A stretch of 10,590 nt of DNA from Rhizobium sp. Q54 (GTDB lineage Bacteria > Pseudomonadota > Alphaproteobacteria > SMXS01), in the NCBI GenBank assembly GCA_945872035.1, contig CAMBYA010000057.1:1-10590 (forward strand), read 5' to 3'. Position 1 is the first letter of the stretch, and every line of letters starts with the position of its first letter. Positions 1-10,590 of this stretch are shown here, in pieces. The notes beneath the pieces were generated by a model. It had not been told where the DNA came from, did not search any database, and was given only the letters and a program-made list of their open reading frames with translations. A program made the position numbers and the translations under genes.

Positions 1-123
1 CTGGAAACTGTCGCCCGACGGAGGGCGCATATCGCGCTGGCCGGTCCAGCCCGCGCCCGCCAGTGGCAGCCGCCTGATCCAGCCGCGCCAGGCGACCAGC
101 CGCAGCAGGCGCGACGCGGTCCA
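1..123 (-). pseudogene. lutB: In-frame continuation of lutB past the TAG (LutB C-terminal domain, runs off the left edge)
   Basis: On the minus strand the 41 codons after the TAG at 124-126 stay open in the lutB frame to the window edge. They read WTASRLLRLVAWRGW, then PLAGAGWTGQRD, then RPPSGDSFQ. This matches the pattern of the LutB C-terminal domain: a helix rich in Arg and Leu, then P-L-x-G-x-x-W-T-x-x-R-D, then P-x-x-x-x-x-F near the protein end. Homology therefore crosses the stop without a frame change. A single substitution (for example CAG to TAG) or a base-calling error would explain it; suppression of the amber codon is a less likely alternative. No new start codon with a ribosome binding site is evident at the beginning of this segment. 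Confidence 0.8.
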
Positions 124-1395
124 CTACATGGCGCGGTAGACCGTCGGGCTGGCCGCGATCACCGCCCAGGCATGCAGGCCCCAGCGCGCGCCGCGCGGTG
201 TCAGATGCTGCTCGAATTCGCGTTCGCGCCAGTGGCGCATCATCCGCGGCAGCGGGATGCGCACCGGACACACCGCCTCGCACCGGCCGCAGAAACTCGA
301 CGCGTTCGGCAGGTGCCCGGCCTTGTCGATTCCGGCAAGGCTGGGCGTGAGCACCGCGCCCATGGGGCCGGGATAGACCGAGCCATAGGCGTGGCCGCCG
401 ATGTTGGCATAGACCGGGCAGTGGTTGAGGCAGGCGCCGCAGCGGATGCAGCGCAACATCTCCTCGAATTCGGTACCCATCATGTTCGAGCGGCCGTTGT
501 CGAGGAGCACCACGTGGAACGAAGACGACCCCGACAGGTCGGCCGTCCGCTTCGGCCCGGTGAAGAAGCTGATATAGGCGGTGATATCCTGCCCGGTCGC
601 CGAGCGCGGAAGAAGCCGCAGCATCAGGTGGCAGTCGTCCAGCGTCGGCACCAGCTTTTCGATGCCGGTGACGACGATGTGGGTGTCGGGCAGCGAGGCG
701 GTCAGGTCGGCGTTGCCCTCGTTGGTGACGACCACAGCCGAGCCGGTCTCGGCCACCAGGAAATTGGCGCCGGTGATGCCGACATCGGCCTTCACGAAGC
801 GCTGGCGCAGGATCGAGCGCGCCTCGCGCACCATGTCGGACCGCACGGTCAGGCGTTCGTGGAAGCCATGCTTGGGATGGTGTTCGTGGAAGGTGTCGGC
901 GACCTGGTCCTTCGACAGGTGGATGACCGGCGCGATGATGTGGCTGGGCTTCTCCTTGCGGAGCTGGATGATGTATTCGCCCAGGTCGGTCTCGATCGGC
1001 TCGATACCATGCTCTTCCAGGTACGGATTGAGCTCGATCTCCTCGGTCACCATGCTCTTGCTCTTGGTGACCGTGCGCGCACCGGCGTTGCGGCAGATAG
1101 CGAGCACTATGGCCCGCGCCTCGTCCGCGTCCCGCGCCCAGTGCACCTGGCCGCCAAGCCCGGTGACGTTGGCCTCGAACTGCTCCAGGTAGTCCGCCAG
1201 GTGGGCGATGGTGTGCGCCTTGACGTCGCGGGCCCGGTCGCGCATGGCCTCGAAGTCCGGCAGCCGCGCGGCCGCGTTCGCCCGCGCCTCGACGAAGCCG
1301 TGCTTGATGTGCTTCAGGGCGTGCTGCAGCGTGGCGTCGCCCAGCGCGGCGCGCGCCTTCTCGACGAATGCGCCGCTTTCAACCTCCACGGCCAT
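124..1395 (-). CDS. lutB: LutB-like iron-sulfur protein of lactate oxidation, ended early by an in-frame TAG
   Basis: This is the LutB/YkgF subunit of the LutABC complex, which oxidises L-lactate to pyruvate using Fe-S clusters. The 423-residue product has the LUD-type domain over roughly residues 60-300 (for example TGANFLVAETGSAVVVTNEG at 209-228). A ferredoxin-like region follows, with CIRCGACLNHCP (Cys 316, 319, 322, 326) and a second cluster motif CGRCEAVCP (Cys 369, 372, 376). The start ATG at 1395 shares a base with the lutA stop (TAATG), implying translational coupling. LutB proteins are usually about 470 residues, so this one is short. It stops at TAG (124-126) just after VYRAM, where the family's C-terminal domain should begin, and that domain continues in frame beyond the stop (see 1-123). 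Family assignment is firm; whether the gene is functional is open. Confidence 0.93.
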   Translation of the reverse strand: MAVEVESGAFVEKARAALGDATLQHALKHIKHGFVEARANAAARLPDFEAMRDRARDVKAHTIAHLADYLEQFEANVTGLGGQVHWARDADEARAIVLAICRNAGARTVTKSKSMVTEEIELNPYLEEHGIEPIETDLGEYIIQLRKEKPSHIIAPVIHLSKDQVADTFHEHHPKHGFHERLTVRSDMVREARSILRQRFVKADVGITGANFLVAETGSAVVVTNEGNADLTASLPDTHIVVTGIEKLVPTLDDCHLMLRLLPRSATGQDITAYISFFTGPKRTADLSGSSSFHVVLLDNGRSNMMGTEFEEMLRCIRCGACLNHCPVYANIGGHAYGSVYPGPMGAVLTPSLAGIDKAGHLPNASSFCGRCEAVCPVRIPLPRMMRHWREREFEQHLTPRGARWGLHAWAVIAASPTVYRAM

Positions 1396-2144
1396 TACCT
1401 TTCACTGGACTTCTCCAGGGTGCCGGCGAGCAGCTCTGCCACATGGCAGGCGCGGATATCCCTGCCCTCGCGGCGCAACTTGCCTTCGATGTTGAGCAGG
1501 CAGCCCACATCGCCCATGGCGACGGTGTCGGCGCCGGTCGCGGCGATGTCGGCGGTCTTGTTCTCGACCATGCGGCCGGAAACATCCGGGTACTTGACGC
1601 AGAACGTGCCGCCGAAGCCGCAGCAGACCTCGGGCTCGCTCAGCTCCAGCAGCTTCAGGCCCGGCAGCTTGCGCAGCAGCGAACGCGGCTGGTCATGGAT
1701 GCCCAGCTCGCGCAGGCCCGAGCAGCTGTCGTGGTAGGCGACACGGGTCGCCTGGAGCGGCACAGATGGCGTGTAGCCATGGCGCGCCAGGAACACGGTC
1801 AGTTCCTCGGTCCTGTCGGCGAGCGCCCGAGCCTTGCCGAACAGGGCGTCGGCTTCGTCGAACAGGCTGGGATAATGCACCTTGATCATCCCGGCGCAGG
1901 AACCCGACGGCACGACGACATGACTGTAGGGCTCCAGTACCGAGATGGTCCGCTCGGCCATGCTGCGCGCCGCGCGGCGGTCGCCGCTGTTGTAGTTGGG
2001 CTGGCCGCAACAGGTCTGCCACCTGGGCGCGACCACCTCGAAGCCGGCCGCCTCGATCAGCGCCGCGCTGGCGAATCCCACCTGCGGCCGCATCAGGTCG
2101 ACAAGGCAGGTGACGAACAGCGCCGCTTGCGGCTTTGTCTGCAT
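1395..2144 (-). CDS. lutA: LutA-like (Fe-S)-binding protein, lactate utilisation
   Basis: This is the LutA/YkgE subunit of the LutABC L-lactate oxidation complex, a protein with two cysteine-rich CCG domains related to GlcF and heterodisulfide reductase subunit B. The 249-residue product shows TCCGQPN (Cys 45-46), GSC (Cys 83), DSCSGLRELG (Cys 141), EVCCGFGGTFC (Cys 174, 175, 182) and Cys 215, in the order expected for two CCG motifs, plus FVTCLVDLMRPQVG at the N terminus. I chose the ATG at 2144 because FVTCLVDL then sits at residues 10-17, as is usual, and GGTGA lies shortly upstream; an in-frame GTG at 2156 is possible. A longer open frame reaches 2216, but the extra residues look unrelated to the family. 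The stop TAA overlaps the lutB ATG by one base. LutC is not in the window. Confidence 0.94.
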   Translation of the reverse strand: MQTKPQAALFVTCLVDLMRPQVGFASAALIEAAGFEVVAPRWQTCCGQPNYNSGDRRAARSMAERTISVLEPYSHVVVPSGSCAGMIKVHYPSLFDEADALFGKARALADRTEELTVFLARHGYTPSVPLQATRVAYHDSCSGLRELGIHDQPRSLLRKLPGLKLLELSEPEVCCGFGGTFCVKYPDVSGRMVENKTADIAATGADTVAMGDVGCLLNIEGKLRREGRDIRACHVAELLAGTLEKSSER

Positions 2145-2268
2145 CGGTTTTTTCACCGGCGCATAGTGCCAGAGGCGCCGCGCCGCGCAAAGGCGCGATG
2201 GTCCCGAGAAAGGCAAGGACCTCCCGGTTCAGTCCTCACGCTGCTGAACGGCGGGCGGCCTGTGGCGT

Positions 2269-2829
2269 TCAGGTGCGTTCCATGGCGACAGGCCGGGGCA
2301 CATCGCCGGGCGCCAGCTTTTCCAGCAGATCGAACGGATTCGAACCGAAATAGATGTCCTCGCCGATCAGCTTGCCGTCCGGGTCGGCGGGCCAGACCGT
2401 CAGCAGCTGGGCGTTGGAGACGTACCGGGCGTCGGCATCGACCGGTTCGCCATTCACCTGCGTCACGCCTGCCGCCAGCAAGGCCGCGCCGGGATGGGTG
2501 TTGCGCAGCCTGCCTTCGGTCACCACGGCGTTGTCGTTGACGACGATCTTCTCGACGTTGAATTCGAAGAGGTTGCCGCCCGAGGCGATCAGCATCTCGT
2601 AGAACGCCCGCACGGCCTGGCGTCCCTTGGGGCCGCGGTCGGGGCCGGTGCCCCAGATGTGATATTGCGGCTCGGCGGTCAACGTGGCCATCAGAAGCTC
2701 GATCTCGCCACAGACCTCGGTCTTCATGTGATCGCGCACTTCCTTCAGCAGCTTCTTGTGGCGCGGATTGGTCTCGGCTGCATAGGCGGCCTCGACGGCG
2801 GCCCAGGTCCTGGTCGGATCGACTTTCAT
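2269..2829 (-). CDS. NTF2/SnoaL-like domain protein
   Basis: The product is a 186-residue cytosolic protein with the look of the nuclear transport factor 2-like (SnoaL) fold: N-terminal helices (TWAAVEAAYAAETNPRHKK), then YHIWGTGPDRGPKGRQAV followed by a helix ending FYEML, then alternating strands (FEFNVEKIVVNDNAVVTEGR and LLTVWPADPDGKLIGEDIYF). Members of this fold include isomerases, cyclases, dehydratases and non-catalytic binding proteins, so no substrate can be named. The ATG at 2829 is preceded by GGGGAG seven bases upstream. The open frame extends to 2925, but that extension would start inside a palindrome and lacks family character. The gene lies 124 bp upstream of lutA on the same strand, so cotranscription is possible, and it is divergent from the PPOX-family gene at 2989. 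Confidence 0.82.
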   Translation of the reverse strand: MKVDPTRTWAAVEAAYAAETNPRHKKLLKEVRDHMKTEVCGEIELLMATLTAEPQYHIWGTGPDRGPKGRQAVRAFYEMLIASGGNLFEFNVEKIVVNDNAVVTEGRLRNTHPGAALLAAGVTQVNGEPVDADARYVSNAQLLTVWPADPDGKLIGEDIYFGSNPFDLLEKLAPGDVPRPVAMERT

Positions 2830-2916
2830 GCACTTGCTCCCCGATGGCGTTTCAACACCCATCCTAGTGGTTCGCCAGGCTGGAAAACAGGGCGCTCGAA
2901 TGCTGACGCAGAATAA

Positions 2917-2933
2917 ATTAATCAATGATTAAT
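2917..2933. promoter_or_regulatory. Perfect 17-bp palindrome, probable operator between divergent genes
   Basis: ATTAATCAATGATTAAT has two perfect 8-base arms around a central A at 2925. It stands out because it is AT-only but for one C and one G in otherwise GC-rich DNA. It lies 87 bp upstream of the NTF2-like gene start and 55 bp upstream of the PPOX-family gene start. Size, symmetry and AT content fit a binding site for a small dimeric repressor (MarR, TetR or similar); which one cannot be told, as no such regulator is encoded in the window. Control of both flanking genes is an inference. Confidence 0.6.
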
Positions 2934-2988
2934 GGCGGATTGCGGTACGATGTCGCCCTGATGCCTTCGCAAGCCCGGAGAACCGAAC

Positions 2989-3510
2989 GTGAGTGACACG
3001 CCCGCCCGCCCCGCCTGGTTCGCCCGGCGCGAAATCAGCCCGTTCGTCCTGGAGGATGCCGAGGTCGACGAGATTCTCCGCAAGGCCACCCATGCGGTCG
3101 TTTCGTGGGTGACCAAAGACTCCAAGCCGGTCTCCGCGGTGGTGGTCTATGTCCTGGTCGATGGCGTCATCACCATCACCTCGACCACCAACCGGGCCAA
3201 GTACCACGCCTGGCGGCGGAACCCGGCGGCCAGCTTCTGCATCTGGGACCCGGAAAACATCGGCCGTCAGGTCACCCTGAGGGGGCACGTGGAGATCATG
3301 CAGAGCGCCGAACTCCTGAGCCGCTTCACGGAGATATTCCTGACGCAGCGCATGGGCGGACCGCCGTCGCCGGAGCGCCTCGCCGCCGAGATCGCAAAGT
3401 TCGATGCGCCGGACCGCCACATGATGCAGTTGCACGTCGAGAAGGTGCTCACCCACGACCTGACCCGCCTGTTCAAGGCCGAAAGGGACGGCACCGACGT
3501 CTGGAGCTGA
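2989..3510 (+). CDS. Pyridoxamine 5'-phosphate oxidase-family (FMN-binding split barrel) protein
   Basis: The 173-residue product resembles the PPOX-like flavin-binding split-barrel family, which includes FMN- and F420-dependent reductases. The barrel core is visible as HAVVSWVTKDSKPVSAVVVY (35-54), then VITITSTTNRAKYHAWRRNP (60-79), AASFCIWDP and RQVTLRGHVEI, the usual order of strand, substrate strand, T-x-x-x-x-K-x-x-x-x-x-R-x-P phosphate-contact segment and R-G-x-x-E-I strand. The C-terminal region HMMQLHVEKVLTHDLTRLF completes the fold. It starts at GTG (2989) with GGAGAA six bases upstream. Substrate and cofactor choice cannot be read from the sequence. It is divergent from the NTF2-like gene, sharing a palindrome, and convergent with the hydrolase gene 20 bp downstream; no clear terminator is visible between them. 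Confidence 0.85.
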   Translation: MSDTPARPAWFARREISPFVLEDAEVDEILRKATHAVVSWVTKDSKPVSAVVVYVLVDGVITITSTTNRAKYHAWRRNPAASFCIWDPENIGRQVTLRGHVEIMQSAELLSRFTEIFLTQRMGGPPSPERLAAEIAKFDAPDRHMMQLHVEKVLTHDLTRLFKAERDGTDVWS

Positions 3511-3530
3511 ACGGCCGCAGCCGGTCGAGC

Positions 3531-4235
3531 CTACCAAGTCAGCCACTGGCGCAGCAGCGCGCTGGTCTCCTCGGGCTTCTCCATCGCCGGCAGGTGCCCG
3601 CAGTCGTCGAAGACATACAGTCGCGAGCCCGCGATGCCCGCGTGGATCTCCCGCGCCCTGGCGAGCGGCGTGACCACGTCGGAGTCGCCCACGGCGACCA
3701 GCGTCGGCACGGCGATCGATGGCAGCAGCGGCCGGCTGTCCGGCCGCGACATGATCACCTGCTGCTGGCGGCGGTAGGCGTCGGCGCCGACTCGCTTGGC
3801 CATCGCCATCACCGCCTCGCCCACCGGCCCGTCCACCTGCGATGCATGCACCAGCTGCGGCAGCAGATGCTTGGTGACGCCGAGGAAGCGGCCGGCCTTC
3901 AGCGACTCGACCAGCCGCCTGCGCCGGTCCGCGGCGCGTTCATCGTCGGACGCCGCGCTGGTGTCGAACAGCGCCAGGCGAGTCACCCGTTCCGGAGCCT
4001 GCCGGAAGACCTCGAATGCCACATAACCGCCCATCGACAGCCCGGCCAGGGCGAAGCGGGGCGGCGCCGTCGCCAGTATCCGAGCCGCAATGGCACCGAT
4101 CGTGTCGTCGACGGTGAGGTCGGCGATCGACGCAGCCGCCACATCGGCCAGCGCATCCACCTGCGCGCGCCAGAGCGTCGCATCGCAAAGCAGGCCGGGA
4201 AGGAGGATGAGCGGCATCAGGGGCATAACGAACAT
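3531..4235 (-). CDS. Alpha/beta hydrolase
   Basis: This is an alpha/beta-hydrolase of about 230-240 residues, related in pattern to small esterases and lactonases of the 3-oxoadipate enol-lactonase / BioH type. Visible landmarks are the N-terminal LILLPGLLCDATLW (oxyanion-hole strand), the nucleophile elbow LAGLSMGGY (catalytic Ser), the acid strand TLVAVGDSDVVTPL (Asp), and DDCGHLPAMEKPEE (catalytic His), with a helical cap rich in Arg and Lys between. The triad is complete, so the enzyme should be active; the substrate is unknown. The start is uncertain: ATG at 4235, 4226 and 4217 and GTG at 4253 are all in frame and none has a strong ribosome binding site. No signal peptide is apparent, so a cytosolic location is likely. 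Confidence 0.87.
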   Translation of the reverse strand: MFVMPLMPLILLPGLLCDATLWRAQVDALADVAAASIADLTVDDTIGAIAARILATAPPRFALAGLSMGGYVAFEVFRQAPERVTRLALFDTSAASDDERAADRRRRLVESLKAGRFLGVTKHLLPQLVHASQVDGPVGEAVMAMAKRVGADAYRRQQQVIMSRPDSRPLLPSIAVPTLVAVGDSDVVTPLARAREIHAGIAGSRLYVFDDCGHLPAMEKPEETSALLRQWLTW

Positions 4236-4298
4236 TTGGACGCCACAAGGCACGGATCAAGCCAATGCGCCCCGCCTCGCGTCAGTCCGGTCGCGCCA

Positions 4299-4599
4299 CT
4301 ACTTCTTCAGCGAGAATTCTACGCGGAAACCATGCTGTGACGGGACGGGCTGTCCGTGAAGGGTAGCGGGACGAAAGCGCCAGTTGAAGGCGGCTTCACG
4401 CGCCGCAGCCTGGTCCAGCAGCGGGAAGCCACTGCTCCGCGCGACAACCTGGATGCGCAGGGTCCTGCCGTGGAGGCGTTGCGGCCTCGCTCGCCTCGTC
4501 GATGACCGGCGGCGGCGTGACCGGCGCCTGCGGATCGGCTAGCGACGGGCTGACCAGAAAACCAGAGATCGCGGCCACCGCGCAAATATGCCTGAGCAT
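4299..4599 (-). pseudogene. Broken TonB-like protein gene (frameshift, probably with a small deletion)
   Basis: The start is convincing: ATG at 4599 with GGGGAGGGGG just upstream. The first frame encodes a signal peptide (MLRHICAVAAISGFLVSPSLA, cleavage likely after SLA) and a proline-rich stretch (DPQAPVTPPPVIDEASEA), then loses sense and stops near 4396. In another frame, from about 4470 to the TAG at 4299-4301, lies a clear TonB C-terminal domain: GRTLRIQVVARSSGFPLLDQ, then AAFNWRFRPATLHGQPV, then FRVEFSLKK. The W-R-F-R-P-A, S-S-G-x-P-x-L-D and C-terminal V-x-F-S-L landmarks are typical. From ATG to this stop is 301 bases, not a multiple of three. The usual Y-P...G-x-x-G-x-V segment at the start of the domain is missing from both frames, pointing to a small deletion plus frameshift. 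An intact version would be a periplasmic TonB-domain protein. Confidence 0.75.
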
Positions 4600-4699
4600 T
4601 GTCAGCCCCCTCCCCAATCCCGGCCTAGGTAAAGTAGGCATCAATGCCGATCCACGTCCTGCTCCAGATGTCTCAGGCGCATAGACGAGCGCTCACCCC

Positions 4700-6328
<1,629 letters not shown>

Positions 6329-6491
6329 CAACCGTCCCTCGTTCGCTTAGTTGACCATTGGATTGCTTATACATGACGCCGGTGACGCCGCGAACAGGTT
6401 AGCGGCCGATCCCGCGGCGCCGCCGCGATGCTGGAACGGCCACACTTAAAGGTTGTGCGTTTTCACTTGCGCGGTGTGTCGCTTTGTCAGC

Positions 6492-6497
6492 TACAAT
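6492..6497 (+). promoter_or_regulatory. Possible -10 element for the luxR transcript
   Basis: TACAAT matches the sigma-70 -10 consensus at five of six bases. A TTGCGC at 6467-6472 could be the -35, but the 19-bp gap is longer than ideal. Transcription from here would include the 43-codon frame at 6596 and luxR at 6727. It also argues against starting LuxR further upstream, since the longer open frame begins inside this element. No lux-box-like dyad is seen next to it. Confidence 0.35.
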
Positions 6498-6595
6498 GCA
6501 GCCCGAGGACAACAAAGCCATTCCGCCCAGACCTTTAGTATCCCGGACAATCGTGGGCGGCTGGGAAGCCAGGCGGCAACGCCCAGGGCCAACGC

Positions 6596-6727
6596 ATGAC
6601 GATGAGCACCTTGGCCGCAAGGCTGATGGAGGGGGACCGGTTCCGCCCGCATCCCGGTCGCCGGGACGCGGCCGATCGGCCCGCTATGGGCGAATCGCTG
6701 CGCGCCGCCGGCCGACAGGTCCGCTGA
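6596..6727 (+). CDS. Possible 43-residue upstream reading frame overlapping the luxR start
   Basis: ATG at 6596 opens a 43-codon frame (beginning MTMSTLAARLMEGD, ending AAGRQVR) whose TGA at 6725-6727 overlaps the luxR ATG as TGATG. Most codons end in G or C, and the peptide is rich in Arg and Ala with no family I recognise. The ribosome binding site is weak (AGGG about ten bases upstream). The one-base stop/start overlap is a common arrangement for translational coupling, so this could be a small gene or a leader controlling luxR translation. In GC-rich DNA a frame of this size also arises by chance, so the call is tentative. Confidence 0.3.
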   Translation: MTMSTLAARLMEGDRFRPHPGRRDAADRPAMGESLRAAGRQVR

Positions 6728-7446
6728 TGCTGGTCGACGAGTTCTTCCAAACGACGGCGCAGGCGGCGACCCGCGAGGAACTGCTGGAAGGATTCAGCAA
6801 GGCCATGCTGTCGCTGGACTTCGACCGGGTCCACTATTTCGGCTTTCCCAATCCCCTCACCCGCGGACCGTCGGCCGATGTGGTCGTGTTCACCATGCTC
6901 CCGGAGGACTGGTTCGCCCATTACGATGCCGAGAGATACGAGGAGATCGATCCCCTGGCCGAGCATACGGTGCATAGCCGCCTGCCGTTCGAGTGGGAAG
7001 AGATCACGGCGTCCATGGAGTTGACCCGGCGGCAGAAGCAGCTGCTGGGCGAGATCCGCGAGGCATTGATGTTCGACGGCGTCACCGTGCCGATCCACGG
7101 CCCGTTCGGACAGGTAAACGGCGTCTGTTTCATGCGCAGCAAGGCACGCGGCGTGTCGCCCAGCGACCTGCATATCGGCCGGGTGCTGTCGGTGCAATTC
7201 CACCAGGCCTATACCGCCATCGAGGATGACGGCGACACCGTGTCCGGCTCGCCGCTCACCGCGCGCGAGCGCGACGTGCTGCTCCGCCTGGTCGAGGGGC
7301 TGAACAACACCAGGACGGCGGAGCGGCTGGGCATATCCGAGCACAGCGTCAAGTTCCACGTCCAGAACGTCTGCAAGAAGCTCGGCGTCAATTCCCGCAT
7401 CGCCGCCGTGGTCAAGGCGATCCGCCTGGGACTGATCGTCCCCTGA
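6727..7446 (+). CDS. LuxR-family quorum-sensing transcriptional regulator (autoinducer-binding domain plus HTH)
   Basis: The 239-residue product has the classic two-domain LuxR layout. Residues about 10-165 form the autoinducer-binding domain with all six residues usually conserved in acyl-homoserine-lactone receptors: Trp 62 and Tyr 66 (DWFAHY), Asp 75 and Pro 76 (IDPLAEH), Trp 90 (PFEWEE) and Gly 118 (FDGVTVPI). Residues about 176-235 form the LuxR helix-turn-helix (SPLTARERDVLLRLVEG, then AERLGISEHSVKFHVQNV), with Glu 181, Leu 185 and Gly 191 in place. ATG at 6727 gives the usual family length; AGGT lies six bases upstream and a TGA of an upstream frame overlaps it. An open frame reaching back to 6484 has no family resemblance. 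No luxI-type synthase occurs in the window, so it may be a solo or act with a distant synthase. It should bind DNA as a ligand-dependent dimer. Confidence 0.93.
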   Translation: MLVDEFFQTTAQAATREELLEGFSKAMLSLDFDRVHYFGFPNPLTRGPSADVVVFTMLPEDWFAHYDAERYEEIDPLAEHTVHSRLPFEWEEITASMELTRRQKQLLGEIREALMFDGVTVPIHGPFGQVNGVCFMRSKARGVSPSDLHIGRVLSVQFHQAYTAIEDDGDTVSGSPLTARERDVLLRLVEGLNNTRTAERLGISEHSVKFHVQNVCKKLGVNSRIAAVVKAIRLGLIVP

Positions 7447-7484
7447 CTTGCCGATCCGCCCCCGCCACGCCCCTCGGGACGCCA

Positions 7485-7508
7485 AAACCTACTGGATTGG
7501 CTAGGTTT
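7485..7508. promoter_or_regulatory. Lux-box-like inverted repeat between luxR and the small gene
   Basis: AAACCTA (7485-7491) and TAGGTTT (7502-7508) are perfect 7-base inverted arms around a 10-base centre. The inner 20 bp, ACCTACTGGATTGGCTAGGT (7487-7506), has the length and end sequences (ACCT...AGGT, with GGAT in the middle) of the Vibrio fischeri lux box and matches it at 13 of 20 positions by my count. It lies 39 bp after the luxR stop and about 80 bp before the start of the 70-residue gene, a suitable place to activate it. It is not a convincing terminator: the stem is short and AU-rich and no T run follows. Binding by this LuxR is an inference. Confidence 0.5.
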
Positions 7509-7587
7509 CGCCGGCCAGCCGGATGCTGTTCACTGGCATCATCGTCATTTCGCCCGGCACACCCGGACCACGTGGAGAGACCGCCAA

Positions 7588-7800
7588 GTGCATCAAGTCG
7601 GCAGCAGAAGCGATGGCATCGACAGCGACCGTCAGTATCTGGCGGTGGCTGAGACTGCCGAAGAGGCGGCCGATGCAATCCTGGGCGGCCTGGAGTACCT
7701 GGTGCGCGAAGCCCATGCTGCCGGCCTGCAGGACCTGGCCCGCGCGTTGACCGGGGTGATCCTCAGCCCGTCGCACTGGCCCCATTCGGGCCGCGGCTGA
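7588..7800 (+). CDS. Small protein of unknown function (70 residues)
   Basis: A GTG start at 7588 is preceded by GGAGA nine bases upstream, and codon third positions are strongly G/C, as in neighbouring genes. The product begins MHQVGSRSDGIDSDRQYLAV, then is mostly predicted helix (ETAEEAADAILGGLEYLVRE, HAAGLQDLARALTGVI) and ends SPSHWPHSGRG. There is no signal peptide, membrane segment, cysteine or metal motif. The two amphipathic helices suggest a small helical, perhaps dimeric, cytosolic protein. I do not recognise a family. It follows luxR by 141 bp with a lux-box-like dyad between, and its end is 13 bp from the convergent corA stop. The overlapping frame at 7523-7750 (+) looks like a shadow. 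Confidence 0.65.
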   Translation: MHQVGSRSDGIDSDRQYLAVAETAEEAADAILGGLEYLVREAHAAGLQDLARALTGVILSPSHWPHSGRG

Positions 7801-7813
7801 ACCCGGCGAATAG

Positions 7814-8965
7814 CTACACTCCGGAACCCTTGGGCTTCTTCTCGCCCAGCCATCCCTTGCGGTAGAAGAACACGAGCAGCACGCACGCCACCGTGAACAT
7901 CAGGCCGAGCGCCGTCGGATAGGCCCACGGCTTCTTCAATTCGGGCATGTATTCGAAGTTCATGCCCCAGATGCCGGCGAAGAAGCTCAGCGGGATGAAG
8001 ATGGTGGAGATGATGGTCAGCACCTTCATGATCTCGTTCATCCGGGCGCTCATGCTCGACAGGTAGACATCGAGCAGGCCGGAGGCGATCTCGCGGTAGG
8101 TCTCGACGATGTCCATCAGCTGGATGGCGTGATCGTAGCAGTCGCGCAGATAGACGCGGGTATTGTCGTGGAAAAGGTGGTGCTCGTCGCGGATCAGCGC
8201 GTTGACCAACTCGCGGGTCGGCCAGATTGCGCGCCGGATCTCCAGCAGGTCGCGCTTGATGGAATGCAGCTTTTCAACGTGGGAAGACTCGGGCGCCGAG
8301 ACCACCAGGTCTTCCAGATCCTCAATCACCTCGCCGTAGTTTTCCAGCAGCGGGAAGAAGTTGTCGATCACCGCGTCGATCAGCGCGTGTGCCAGCCGGT
8401 CCGGTCCTTCCGAGCGGAGCTGGCTGCCCTTGCGCTTGAGGCGGGCGCGGGTCGGATCGAAGCAGTCGCCCGCCCGTTCCTGGAAGGTGATCAGGTAATC
8501 GTCGCCGACGATGATCGCCATCTGCTCGGTCAGTCCGGCGTCCGAATGGTCCAGCATCTTCATGACGATGAAGACGTAGTGGTCGAAGGTTTCGACCTTC
8601 GGACGCTGGTGGGTATTGATGATGTCCTCGAGCGTCAGCCGGTGGATGCCGAACGCCGCGCCGATGTCCTCGATGGTCTTGGTGTCCCTGAGGCCGGTGA
8701 CGTCGATCCAAAGCACGTCACTGCTGTTGCGTAGCTTGGCCAGGTCGCCCGGCGCCACGCCCTCGTGCTCGTGCAGATGCTCGGCGTCGTAGGACACGGT
8801 CTTGACATGTGTGGGAGAGGCGCCGGTGTCGGAGGCGATGGTGCCGGCGGGCAGGTCCACCGACTTGCTGTGGTCGCGGATCACCCGCAGCAGGCCATGC
8901 TTCTTGTGCTTGTCGTGCGCCGGCCCGCCGCTGGAAGCGGAAGCCAAATCCCGTTCAGGCTTCAT
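7814..8965 (-). CDS. corA: CorA-family magnesium/cobalt transporter
   Basis: This is a 383-residue inner-membrane divalent cation channel (Mg2+, Co2+), pentameric in the family. The N-terminal cytosolic domain includes DVLWIDVTGL (83-92), LTLEDIINTHQRPKVETFDHYVF (split at 110-132) and the long helical region through about residue 310. The C terminus has two membrane segments (about 313-333 and 348-368) separated by the selectivity signature GIWGMNFEYMPEL, containing the obligatory GMN (334-336; Trp replaces the usual Tyr before it). ATG at 8965 follows GAGAGGA by eight bases; an open frame reaching 9310 is rejected as unrelated to the family. The first 55 residues are variable, with a basic, His-rich patch (HDKHKKHG at 17-24). 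It appears monocistronic, convergent with the small gene and divergent from the aldo/keto reductase. Confidence 0.95.
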   Translation of the reverse strand: MKPERDLASASSGGPAHDKHKKHGLLRVIRDHSKSVDLPAGTIASDTGASPTHVKTVSYDAEHLHEHEGVAPGDLAKLRNSSDVLWIDVTGLRDTKTIEDIGAAFGIHRLTLEDIINTHQRPKVETFDHYVFIVMKMLDHSDAGLTEQMAIIVGDDYLITFQERAGDCFDPTRARLKRKGSQLRSEGPDRLAHALIDAVIDNFFPLLENYGEVIEDLEDLVVSAPESSHVEKLHSIKRDLLEIRRAIWPTRELVNALIRDEHHLFHDNTRVYLRDCYDHAIQLMDIVETYREIASGLLDVYLSSMSARMNEIMKVLTIISTIFIPLSFFAGIWGMNFEYMPELKKPWAYPTALGLMFTVACVLLVFFYRKGWLGEKKPKGSGV

Positions 8966-9164
8966 GTCGGCGTTCCTCTCAATTGGTCGATATGATGTAG
9001 CACGCGTATGGAACGTTGGAAACGACCTGCGGTCCGGCGGCGCCCCGGCGCCGGCCAATACGCCACCGTGAGGCCGAAAGTTGCCGGCCGGCACGAGGGG
9101 CTGGCCATCCGTGCCGCGCGCCCTTAAGCTGCGCCGCGAATTCACTTTTGGGGAGGAGTTGGGG

Positions 9165-10181
9165 ATGCAGTACCGCCGCCTGGGCAAGAGCCCGATCACC
9201 GTGTCTGACATCTGCATGGGCACCATGACCTTCGGCAACCAGGCCGATGAGAAGACCTCCATGCGCGTGCTCGACATGTCACTCGACGCCGGCATCAACT
9301 TCTTCGACACCGCCGAGAACTACCCCGTGCCGCCTGACGCCAAATATGCCGGCCGCACCGAGGAATTCTTCGGCAAGTGGATGAAGGGCAAGGACCGGGA
9401 CTCCATCATCCTCGCGACCAAGGTCTGCGGCCCCAGCCACGGCTGGATCAAGGGCGCCATGCGCGCCGGCATGACCGCGCTGGACCGCCACAACATCACC
9501 CGCGCGCTCGAGGCCAGCCTGAAGCGGCTGGGCACCGACTATGTCGACCTCTACCAGACTCACTGGCCCGACCACGGCACGCCCTATGACGAGACCATGG
9601 AAGTGCTGGATGACCTCATCCGCGAGGGCAAGATCCGCATCGTCGGCTGCTCCAACGAGACCACCTGGGGCCTGATGAAGTCGATCGCCGCCTCCGAGCG
9701 TGGCGGCTATGCCCGCCACCAGACCATCCAGAACAATTTCAGCCTGAACAACCGGCGGTTCGAGGATGAACTCGCCGCCGCCTGCCGCCACGAGGGTGTC
9801 AGCCTGATCCCGTACTCGCCGCTGGGCGGCGGGGTGCTGTCGGGCAAGTACAACGACGGCGCCCGCCCCGACGGCGCGCGCTTCACCAATTATCTCGGCA
9901 TGGGCGGCCGCCAGGCGGCCATGGCGCGCCGGTTCGTGAACGACCGCAGCCTGGACGCCACCGCCCGCTACATGGCCATTGCCGCAGAGGCCGGCATCTC
10001 GCCGGTGACCATGGCGGTGGCCTGGAGCAAGCAGCACGACTTCGTCGCCTCGACGATTGTCGGCGTAACCACGGTGGAACAGGTTCCGGACGTGCTGGCG
10101 GCGGCGGACATGACGCTGAGCAAGGACGTGATGGACGCCATCGACAAGGTGTCGAAGGAAATCCTCTATCCGATGGGGTGA
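9165..10181 (+). CDS. Aldo/keto reductase, Tas-like
   Basis: The 338-residue product is an NADPH-dependent aldo/keto reductase with a TIM barrel. The catalytic tetrad is complete: Asp 48 and Tyr 53 (FDTAENY), Lys 86 (ILATKV) and His 133 (YQTHWPDH). Wording such as MQYRRLG at the start, GTMTFG, ENYPVPP, SLKRLGTDYVDLYQTHWP and CSNETTWGLM closely follows E. coli Tas, and the C-terminal region (STIVGVTTVEQV) is the usual cofactor-phosphate-binding segment. The physiological substrate is unknown. ATG at 9165 is preceded by GGGGAGGAG with a six-base spacer; the open frame back to 9081 is not supported. The 199-bp gap to the divergent corA should hold both promoters, but I cannot place either with confidence. 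Confidence 0.93.
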   Translation: MQYRRLGKSPITVSDICMGTMTFGNQADEKTSMRVLDMSLDAGINFFDTAENYPVPPDAKYAGRTEEFFGKWMKGKDRDSIILATKVCGPSHGWIKGAMRAGMTALDRHNITRALEASLKRLGTDYVDLYQTHWPDHGTPYDETMEVLDDLIREGKIRIVGCSNETTWGLMKSIAASERGGYARHQTIQNNFSLNNRRFEDELAAACRHEGVSLIPYSPLGGGVLSGKYNDGARPDGARFTNYLGMGGRQAAMARRFVNDRSLDATARYMAIAAEAGISPVTMAVAWSKQHDFVASTIVGVTTVEQVPDVLAAADMTLSKDVMDAIDKVSKEILYPMG

Positions 10182-10327
10182 CAGGCGGCAGCCTTGCCAG
10201 CCAAACACCGGCGTCGGCCGGGAATCATCGTGCAATCAAACCGTTGCCGATGTTCGCGGCCCTGTTGACCGGCCCTACGGCTTGGGAACGCGGGCAAGTT
10301 TGCCGCGAAGGCTGAAGGGAAGGCAGA

Positions 10328-10590
10328 TTGAAGAAGTCTCGGCTGAAACTTCTCGCAAAGGCTCTCGCGGGCCTGGTTGGCCTGGCGGCCGTATTGGCAA
10401 CAGTCGTGGCCCTTGTTCCTCCCTACAAGAACGCGGTCCAGATTGACTTTACCCGCCACCTTTCCCGGCACCATCAAGGCGCGGTCAACGCGGAGACCGA
10501 CCAGAAGACCTTTTTCGGCGTGCCGGGAGCGGCCAGACTGATTGTCACCAGCGACGGCAGGGCGGCGAGCGCGACCATTCGGCTCAATGG
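10328..10590 (+). CDS. N-terminal part of an exported or membrane-anchored protein (runs off the right edge)
   Basis: A TTG at 10328 lies just after AAGGGAAGG and opens a frame with no stop to the window end. The first residues, KKSRLKLLAKALAGLVGLAA, followed by VLATVVALVP, make a basic N terminus and a hydrophobic segment: a signal peptide or a single membrane anchor. The following segment (PPYKNAVQIDFTRHLSRHHQ, then FFGVPGAARLIVTSDGR and SATIRLNG) suggests a beta-rich extracytoplasmic domain, but I cannot name the family from 87 residues. It lies 146 bp after the aldo/keto reductase on the same strand; no terminator or clear promoter is visible between them. The opposite-strand open frame at 10166-10477 is judged a shadow. 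Confidence 0.6.
   Translation, partial: MKKSRLKLLAKALAGLVGLAAVLATVVALVPPYKNAVQIDFTRHLSRHHQGAVNAETDQKTFFGVPGAARLIVTSDGRAASATIRLN

Follow-up and report, generated by a model that had tools for sequence, protein, structure and literature searches.

The window analyzed here, meaning the whole stretch of 10,590 nucleotides from Rhizobium sp. Q54 (contig CAMBYA010000057.1, positions 1 to 10,590, forward strand), contains a gene for a LuxR-type acyl-homoserine lactone (AHL) receptor with no luxI beside it, followed by an inverted repeat and a small gene. The features of this locus and its immediate neighbors are as follows.

4700-6331, minus strand: divergent AMP-binding ligase gene, flanking the luxR side of the unit
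6596..6727, plus strand: short open reading frame (ORF), 43 amino acids (aa), with its stop codon overlapping the start of luxR (TGATG) in 6/6 orthologues; no Pfam match
6727..7446, plus strand: LuxR-type AHL receptor gene, 239 aa, Autoind_bind and GerE domains; orthologues in 5/6 other genomes of the genus
7485..7508, no strand assigned: candidate lux-type box, the dyad AAACCTA-N10-TAGGTTT, recognized by its conservation, with a counterpart in the box before luxI of a paralogous locus
7526..7540, plus strand: second conserved block, with 7/15 invariant columns and a mean identity of 0.75; it does not match the sigma-70 consensus
7574..7579, plus strand: ribosome-binding site GGAGAG (GGAGA in 6/6 orthologues)
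7588..7800, plus strand: small gene, 70 aa, GTG start, predicted two-helix hairpin protein, paralogous to a small protein encoded behind luxI
7814 onward, minus strand: convergent CorA-type gene, flanking the small-gene side of the unit

The luxR gene, the dyad, and the small gene were found in the genome itself and in five of the six other genomes of the genus, and the same convergent corA neighbor lies beside them in all six genomes that carry them. The remaining genome, G006 (84% complete), contains no orthologues of the unit and also none of the corA neighbor. The initial annotation had read the three elements as one unit and had suggested looking for the dyad and the small gene downstream of orthologous luxR genes, where both were found in 6/6 loci. 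That the elements are kept together in six orthologous loci indicates that they constitute one conserved regulatory unit.

Several further observations concern the surroundings of the unit. The TGATG overlap between the short ORF and luxR suggests possible translational coupling; the ORF is 77 aa long in G003 (L022:1268-1501), where it resembles by eye the tail of a LuxR helix-turn-helix domain but has no Pfam match. A conserved block, CACACTTAAAGGTTGTGCGTTTTCACTTGCG, lies upstream of luxR at 6441-6471, between luxR and the divergent AMP-ligase gene. One record that carries the unit (L062) is titled Candidatus Kuenenia stuttgartiensis; its locus matches that of the alphaproteobacterial genome G004, and the title looks wrong.

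A LuxR-type receptor unpaired at its locus

The LuxR protein in the window consists of an Autoind_bind domain (90.6 bits; cutoff, 23) followed by a GerE domain (62.8 bits; cutoff, 23.5), and its best relative with a solved structure is LasR (E value, 1.5e-18). Residues W62, Y66, D75, P76, W90, and G118 are invariant in 9/9 aligned LuxR proteins and are spaced like the classic pocket residues, which in TraR numbering are described as W57, Y61, D70, P71, W85, and G113 (PMC4338825). Because all six pocket positions are kept with this spacing, the receptor likely binds AHLs. No luxI was found in the window or in the genome's own assembly (78% complete), whereas luxI is paired with another luxR in 6/6 other genomes of the genus. 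The earlier description of a solo receptor without luxI thus stands for the window and for this 78%-complete assembly but does not extend to the genus. The receptor is a solo in the sense of being unpaired at this locus, and since a complete luxR-luxI pair is also present in its relatives, the AHL signal may be home-made.

Conservation of the dyad upstream of the small gene

The dyad at 7485-7508 reads AAACCTA-CTGGATTGGC-TAGGTTT, with perfect 7-bp arms around a 10-bp middle. Its inner 20 bp (7487-7506) agree at 13/20 positions with the V. fischeri lux box, a recount that reproduces the figure given in the initial annotation, and this is the only match of at least 13 on either strand of the window. 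When the 141-bp intergenic region was shuffled 2,000 times with its dinucleotides preserved, 1.9% of the shuffles reached 13/20 and 9.75% contained a perfect 7-bp dyad with a spacer of 4 to 14, of which the window has 18 in total. The half-site pattern ACCT-N12-AGGT occurs at 17 sites in the genome compared with 18 for the reversed control. Because shuffles reach similar dyads and the half-site count is close to that of the control, the dyad judged by its letters alone is mildly unusual and constitutes weak evidence.

The half-site count also left the proposed genome-wide scan for the box motif uninformative, and no other box was found in the 78%-complete genome. A tighter pattern, CCTACNGNNTNNNNTAGG, occurs at 12 sites in 10 genomes of the family, compared with 23 for the reversed control; nine of the 12 are the solo and paired boxes themselves, two are located within the 3'-terminal part of a PTPS gene, and one lies between ORFs in G007 with no LuxR in view. 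This strict pattern misses the solo boxes of G003 and G004 and the paired boxes of G006 and G007, and within the 10 genomes, with that of the window 78% complete, it revealed no further box target gene. The genome also has a second LuxR-type gene, and a further ACCT-N12-AGGT site (G000 C2:22952-22971; L047) lies approximately 200 bp ahead of its Autoind_bind match.

Conservation, and not the letters, decides the status of the dyad as a candidate lux box. In a six-way alignment of the genome and the five other genomes of the genus that carry the unit, positions 7484-7509 have a mean pairwise identity of 0.91 (91%), compared with 0.24 for the stretch before the dyad, 0.53 for the stretch behind it, and an average of 0.52 over the rest of the intergenic region, and 20 of these 26 columns are invariant, compared with 2/37 just upstream and 1/16 just downstream. 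The dyad, including its middle, is the best-conserved intergenic stretch across 6/6 orthologues. It has the attributes expected of a lux box in being an inverted repeat upstream of a gene, kept in 6/6 loci, that resembles both the V. fischeri box and the boxes of the paralogous locus. The center of the dyad lies 89 to 94 nt before the start of the small gene in all six loci but at a variable distance, 23 to 61 nt, from the luxR stop, and this steady spacing on one side and variable spacing on the other imply that the dyad travels with the promoter of the small gene. Control of the small gene through the dyad is likely. No sigma-70 consensus promoter match was found; the conserved block at 7526-7540 is where the -10 region and the start site would fall if the box were near -42. 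A role for the dyad as an RNA element or terminator was also considered and set aside, as its fold is no better than that of shuffles (z = -0.41) and neither a terminator-like site nor an Rfam family was found.

The small protein and the paralogous luxR-luxI locus

The small ORF at 7588-7800 is a real gene under purifying selection, as judged by a start at the same place in 6/6 orthologues (GTG five times and TTG once), by substitutions that concentrate in third codon positions (77, 63, and 275 at positions 1, 2, and 3), and by dN/dS values of 0.17 to 0.43 in 15/15 pairs. Its product is confidently predicted to form a hairpin of two helices (residues 24-44 and 48-59), with a pLDDT of 96 to 98 over residues 31-60. 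No Pfam or NCBIfam model matches these small genes. A search of PDB sequences with the window protein gave no match at an E value of ≤1, and a PDB fold search gave 17 matches at an E value of ≤10, all of them short two-helix pieces and none at 0.001.

A second locus, consisting of luxR, a box, luxI, and a small gene, is present in 6/6 other genomes of the genus and in G007, which belongs to another genus. The LuxR proteins of this paralogous locus are 36 to 39% identical to that of the window. In all seven loci the box is CCTACGGAnnACCGTAG, luxI lies 72 nt behind the box center, and the start of a gene homologous to the small gene is at most 1 nt away from the luxI stop; a membrane pyrophosphatase gene is next in line at the two loci that were checked. 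The dyad of the solo locus sits where the paralogous locus has its own box, and the two share 15/24 positions. The solo and luxI-linked small proteins have 16 invariant columns in common, align with an E value of 7e-11 in a profile-profile comparison, and share the core EYLxREAxxAGL, whereas their C-terminal motifs differ (SPSHWP in the solo branch versus ISKWIRGSA in the luxI-linked proteins). The initial annotation had described an uncharacterized small helical protein, but the protein is not isolated: it has a paralogue behind luxI and probable relatives in a wider luxI-linked group.

In a tree of LuxR proteins that covers 55 of 56 rows and whose bootstrap values were not fully settled, the solo clade (100/100) is sister to the luxI-linked clade (99/94). 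The exceptions are the luxI-linked LuxR of G009, which falls outside the paired clade, and a long-branched LuxR of G310, which falls inside it. Given a paralogous locus with luxI and a homologous small gene across the genus, the simplest history is that the window unit would be an old duplicate of a luxR-luxI-small-gene arrangement from which luxI was lost. Of the solo and paired units, the solo one is the faster evolving (dN/dS, 0.17 to 0.43 versus 0 to 0.05).

The small protein may also belong to a group that extends beyond these genera. A profile built from 40 members of the family was compared with 969 small ORFs from the surroundings of 66 luxI genes in other alphaproteobacterial families, taken without picking; the 66 loci come from 70 listed nonfamily luxI matches, of which the four omitted are short and rank among the weakest, and four of the 66 have fewer than 400 nt behind luxI. 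Eight of the best 10 of the 969 ORFs start -30 to +120 nt from the luxI stop, compared with 59/969 overall (P = 5e-9). Three of the 969 are individually significant at an E value of <0.01 (1e-6 to 8e-4), so that the wider homology rests on this ranking. A profile of 29 solo-type rows, with luxI-linked members excluded, placed luxI-adjacent ORFs at six of the first 10 ranks (P = 7e-6). At the stricter level of full proteins, the family proves narrow, with matches in 6 of 385 genomes from the class and to 39 proteins in the database. The luxI-linked small ORFs of several alphaproteobacterial families are likely an overlooked family, of which the window protein would be a member.

Small ORFs directly behind luxI were also observed at individual loci from several alphaproteobacterial families (L109, L111, L112, L113, L122, L125, L153, and L158); they have a similar pattern, and those tested have no Pfam name. 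An alignment of 11 hand-picked ORFs downstream of luxI scored well when compared with the family and was set aside because picking by eye introduces bias. The 27 relatives of a four-row alignment bear no telling names, a search of plasmids with one luxI-linked small ORF found no small relative, and no such ORF lies behind the plasmid luxI of Rhizobium sp. SSA_523.

Possible outputs and comparison with known systems

Two small proteins encoded behind AHL synthase genes have been described as binding the regulator PraR: CinS of Rhizobium leguminosarum (PMC4149787, PMC10790750) and MmaP of Methylobacterium fujisawaense (PMC10790750). PraR itself is described as an XRE-type regulator, encoded ahead of metK and a gene for a tRNA methyltransferase (PMC4149787, PMC10790750, PMC5977203). 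A corresponding cluster was found in the genome analyzed here (L095), with a praR-like HTH_3 gene (43.9 bits), metK, and trmB (Methyltransf_4, 136 bits), and praR-metK-trmB clusters are present in 10/10 genomes of the family. The praR-like gene is widespread; a Shinella record contains the praR-metK-trmB cluster and lacks luxI. By position, size, and predicted helices, the window protein is probably comparable to CinS and MmaP, both known here from their descriptions, and a PraR-type target is the best guess for it.

These considerations suggest a route from AHL through the solo LuxR and the lux-type box to a CinS/MmaP-like small protein and on to PraR, a reading given a probability of roughly 0.55. 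An ancestral operon of luxR, luxI, and the small-protein gene would have been duplicated and, as the paralogy suggests, one copy would have been left without luxI. The solo LuxR, to judge from its conserved residues, would bind an AHL supplied either by the cell's own paired LuxI, of the kind found in the sister genomes, or by neighboring cells. It would then bind the dyad at 7485-7508, as conservation and position suggest, and activate the 70-aa gene, whose transcript would begin near 7539. The predicted two-helix product may bind the XRE-type PraR and take it off its promoters in the manner of CinS and MmaP, and a single PraR would in that case receive input from two paralogous small proteins.

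A possible, though unlikely, alternative keeps the switch but has the small protein act on something other than PraR, either on this LuxR or the paired one, as an antiactivator or as a partner in heteromers, or on some other regulator. The differing C-terminal part is conserved within each branch, and because of it the partner of the solo small protein may differ from that of the luxI-linked one. Small antiactivators such as TraM are annotated near luxR-luxI on plasmids, and in R. leguminosarum PraR is described as not being the only regulator on which CinS must act (PMC4149787). Against these points, the core EYLxREAxxAGL is common to the luxI-linked small proteins, and both described proteins encoded in this position bind PraR.

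A clearly improbable alternative is that the solo LuxR acts as a repressor or competitor at the box or that the paired LuxR is the main binder, in which case the small gene would belong to the paired regulon and the adjacent LuxR would act elsewhere. The similarity of the two boxes and the paralogy of the two receptors are consistent with this, and some LuxR proteins are described as repressing without ligand (PMC4338825). Yet each LuxR type is accompanied by its own version of the box in 5/5 genomes that carry both, and the recognition helices differ (SEHSVKFHVQN in the solo LuxR versus SEHGVEFHVRN in the paired one), as expected if each receptor reads its own box. Since both these helices and the middles of the boxes differ, the two branches may be partly insulated from each other. 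That the dyad is a nonregulatory chance palindrome or a terminator of luxR transcription is most improbable, for although 7-bp dyads are common in the window and in shuffles, this one, with its middle, is better conserved across six genomes than any other part of the intergenic region and keeps a constant spacing to the small gene and not to luxR.

Beyond the proposed route to PraR, a broader and more tentative picture, which we regard as doubtful rather than probable, is that of a listening branch: a solo LuxR with its own antirepressor would have escaped the synthase and would meet the cell's home-made AHL circuit at a single PraR via two paralogous small proteins, adding self and foreign signals, or two signals, by protein contact, with the luxI-linked two-helix proteins forming one large unannotated effector family. 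If this is true, a quorum-sensing circuit can spawn an eavesdropping branch in which receptor and effector are copied, the gene for making the signal disappears, and the output, instead of an enzyme, is a small protein able to disarm another regulator. The unit also offers a test of whether the PraR-binding small proteins of Rhizobium and Methylobacterium represent a general route from AHL to action in the Alphaproteobacteria, one served by small genes that lack a Pfam or NCBIfam model and are easily missed in annotation.

In the open-licence literature that was searched, no solo LuxR driving a PraR-binding small protein was found. The cinR-cinIS/PraR system of R. leguminosarum is similar in having a LuxR receptor, a small protein encoded behind luxI (here in the paralogous locus), and a praR-like gene before metK and trmB; it differs from the window locus, where the small gene has its own box and no luxI in front. 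The mmaR-mmaI-mmaP/PraR system of M. fujisawaense shares the small protein behind luxI and the PraR neighborhood (PMC10790750), and the proteins are of similar scale (59 aa for the described MmaP, 61 aa for the paired-locus protein, and 70 aa for the window protein), but the window unit is without a synthase, and MmaP is compared by its description. Because no luxI precedes the window gene, whereas its paralogue lies directly behind luxI in 7/7 loci, the gene is not filed as a member of the CinS/MmaP group but as one that would work in a similar way.

TraR-TraM likewise places a LuxR-type receptor near a small helical regulator, but the traM genes annotated on two plasmids are approximately 110 codons long and lie some 300 bp behind traI. 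Among solo receptors, the "group 3" Roseobacter-type solos are described as sharing one transcriptional unit with a small hypothetical protein (PMC4338825). QscR and the XccR/OryR solos resemble the window receptor as AHL-type LuxR proteins that have no luxI beside them and likely act on a neighboring gene through a lux box (PMC4338825). Their adjoining targets, as described in the same source, are metabolic genes or operons, whereas the candidate target in the window encodes a small regulatory-type protein, and, unlike them, the window solo appears to be an evident duplicate of a luxI-paired LuxR.
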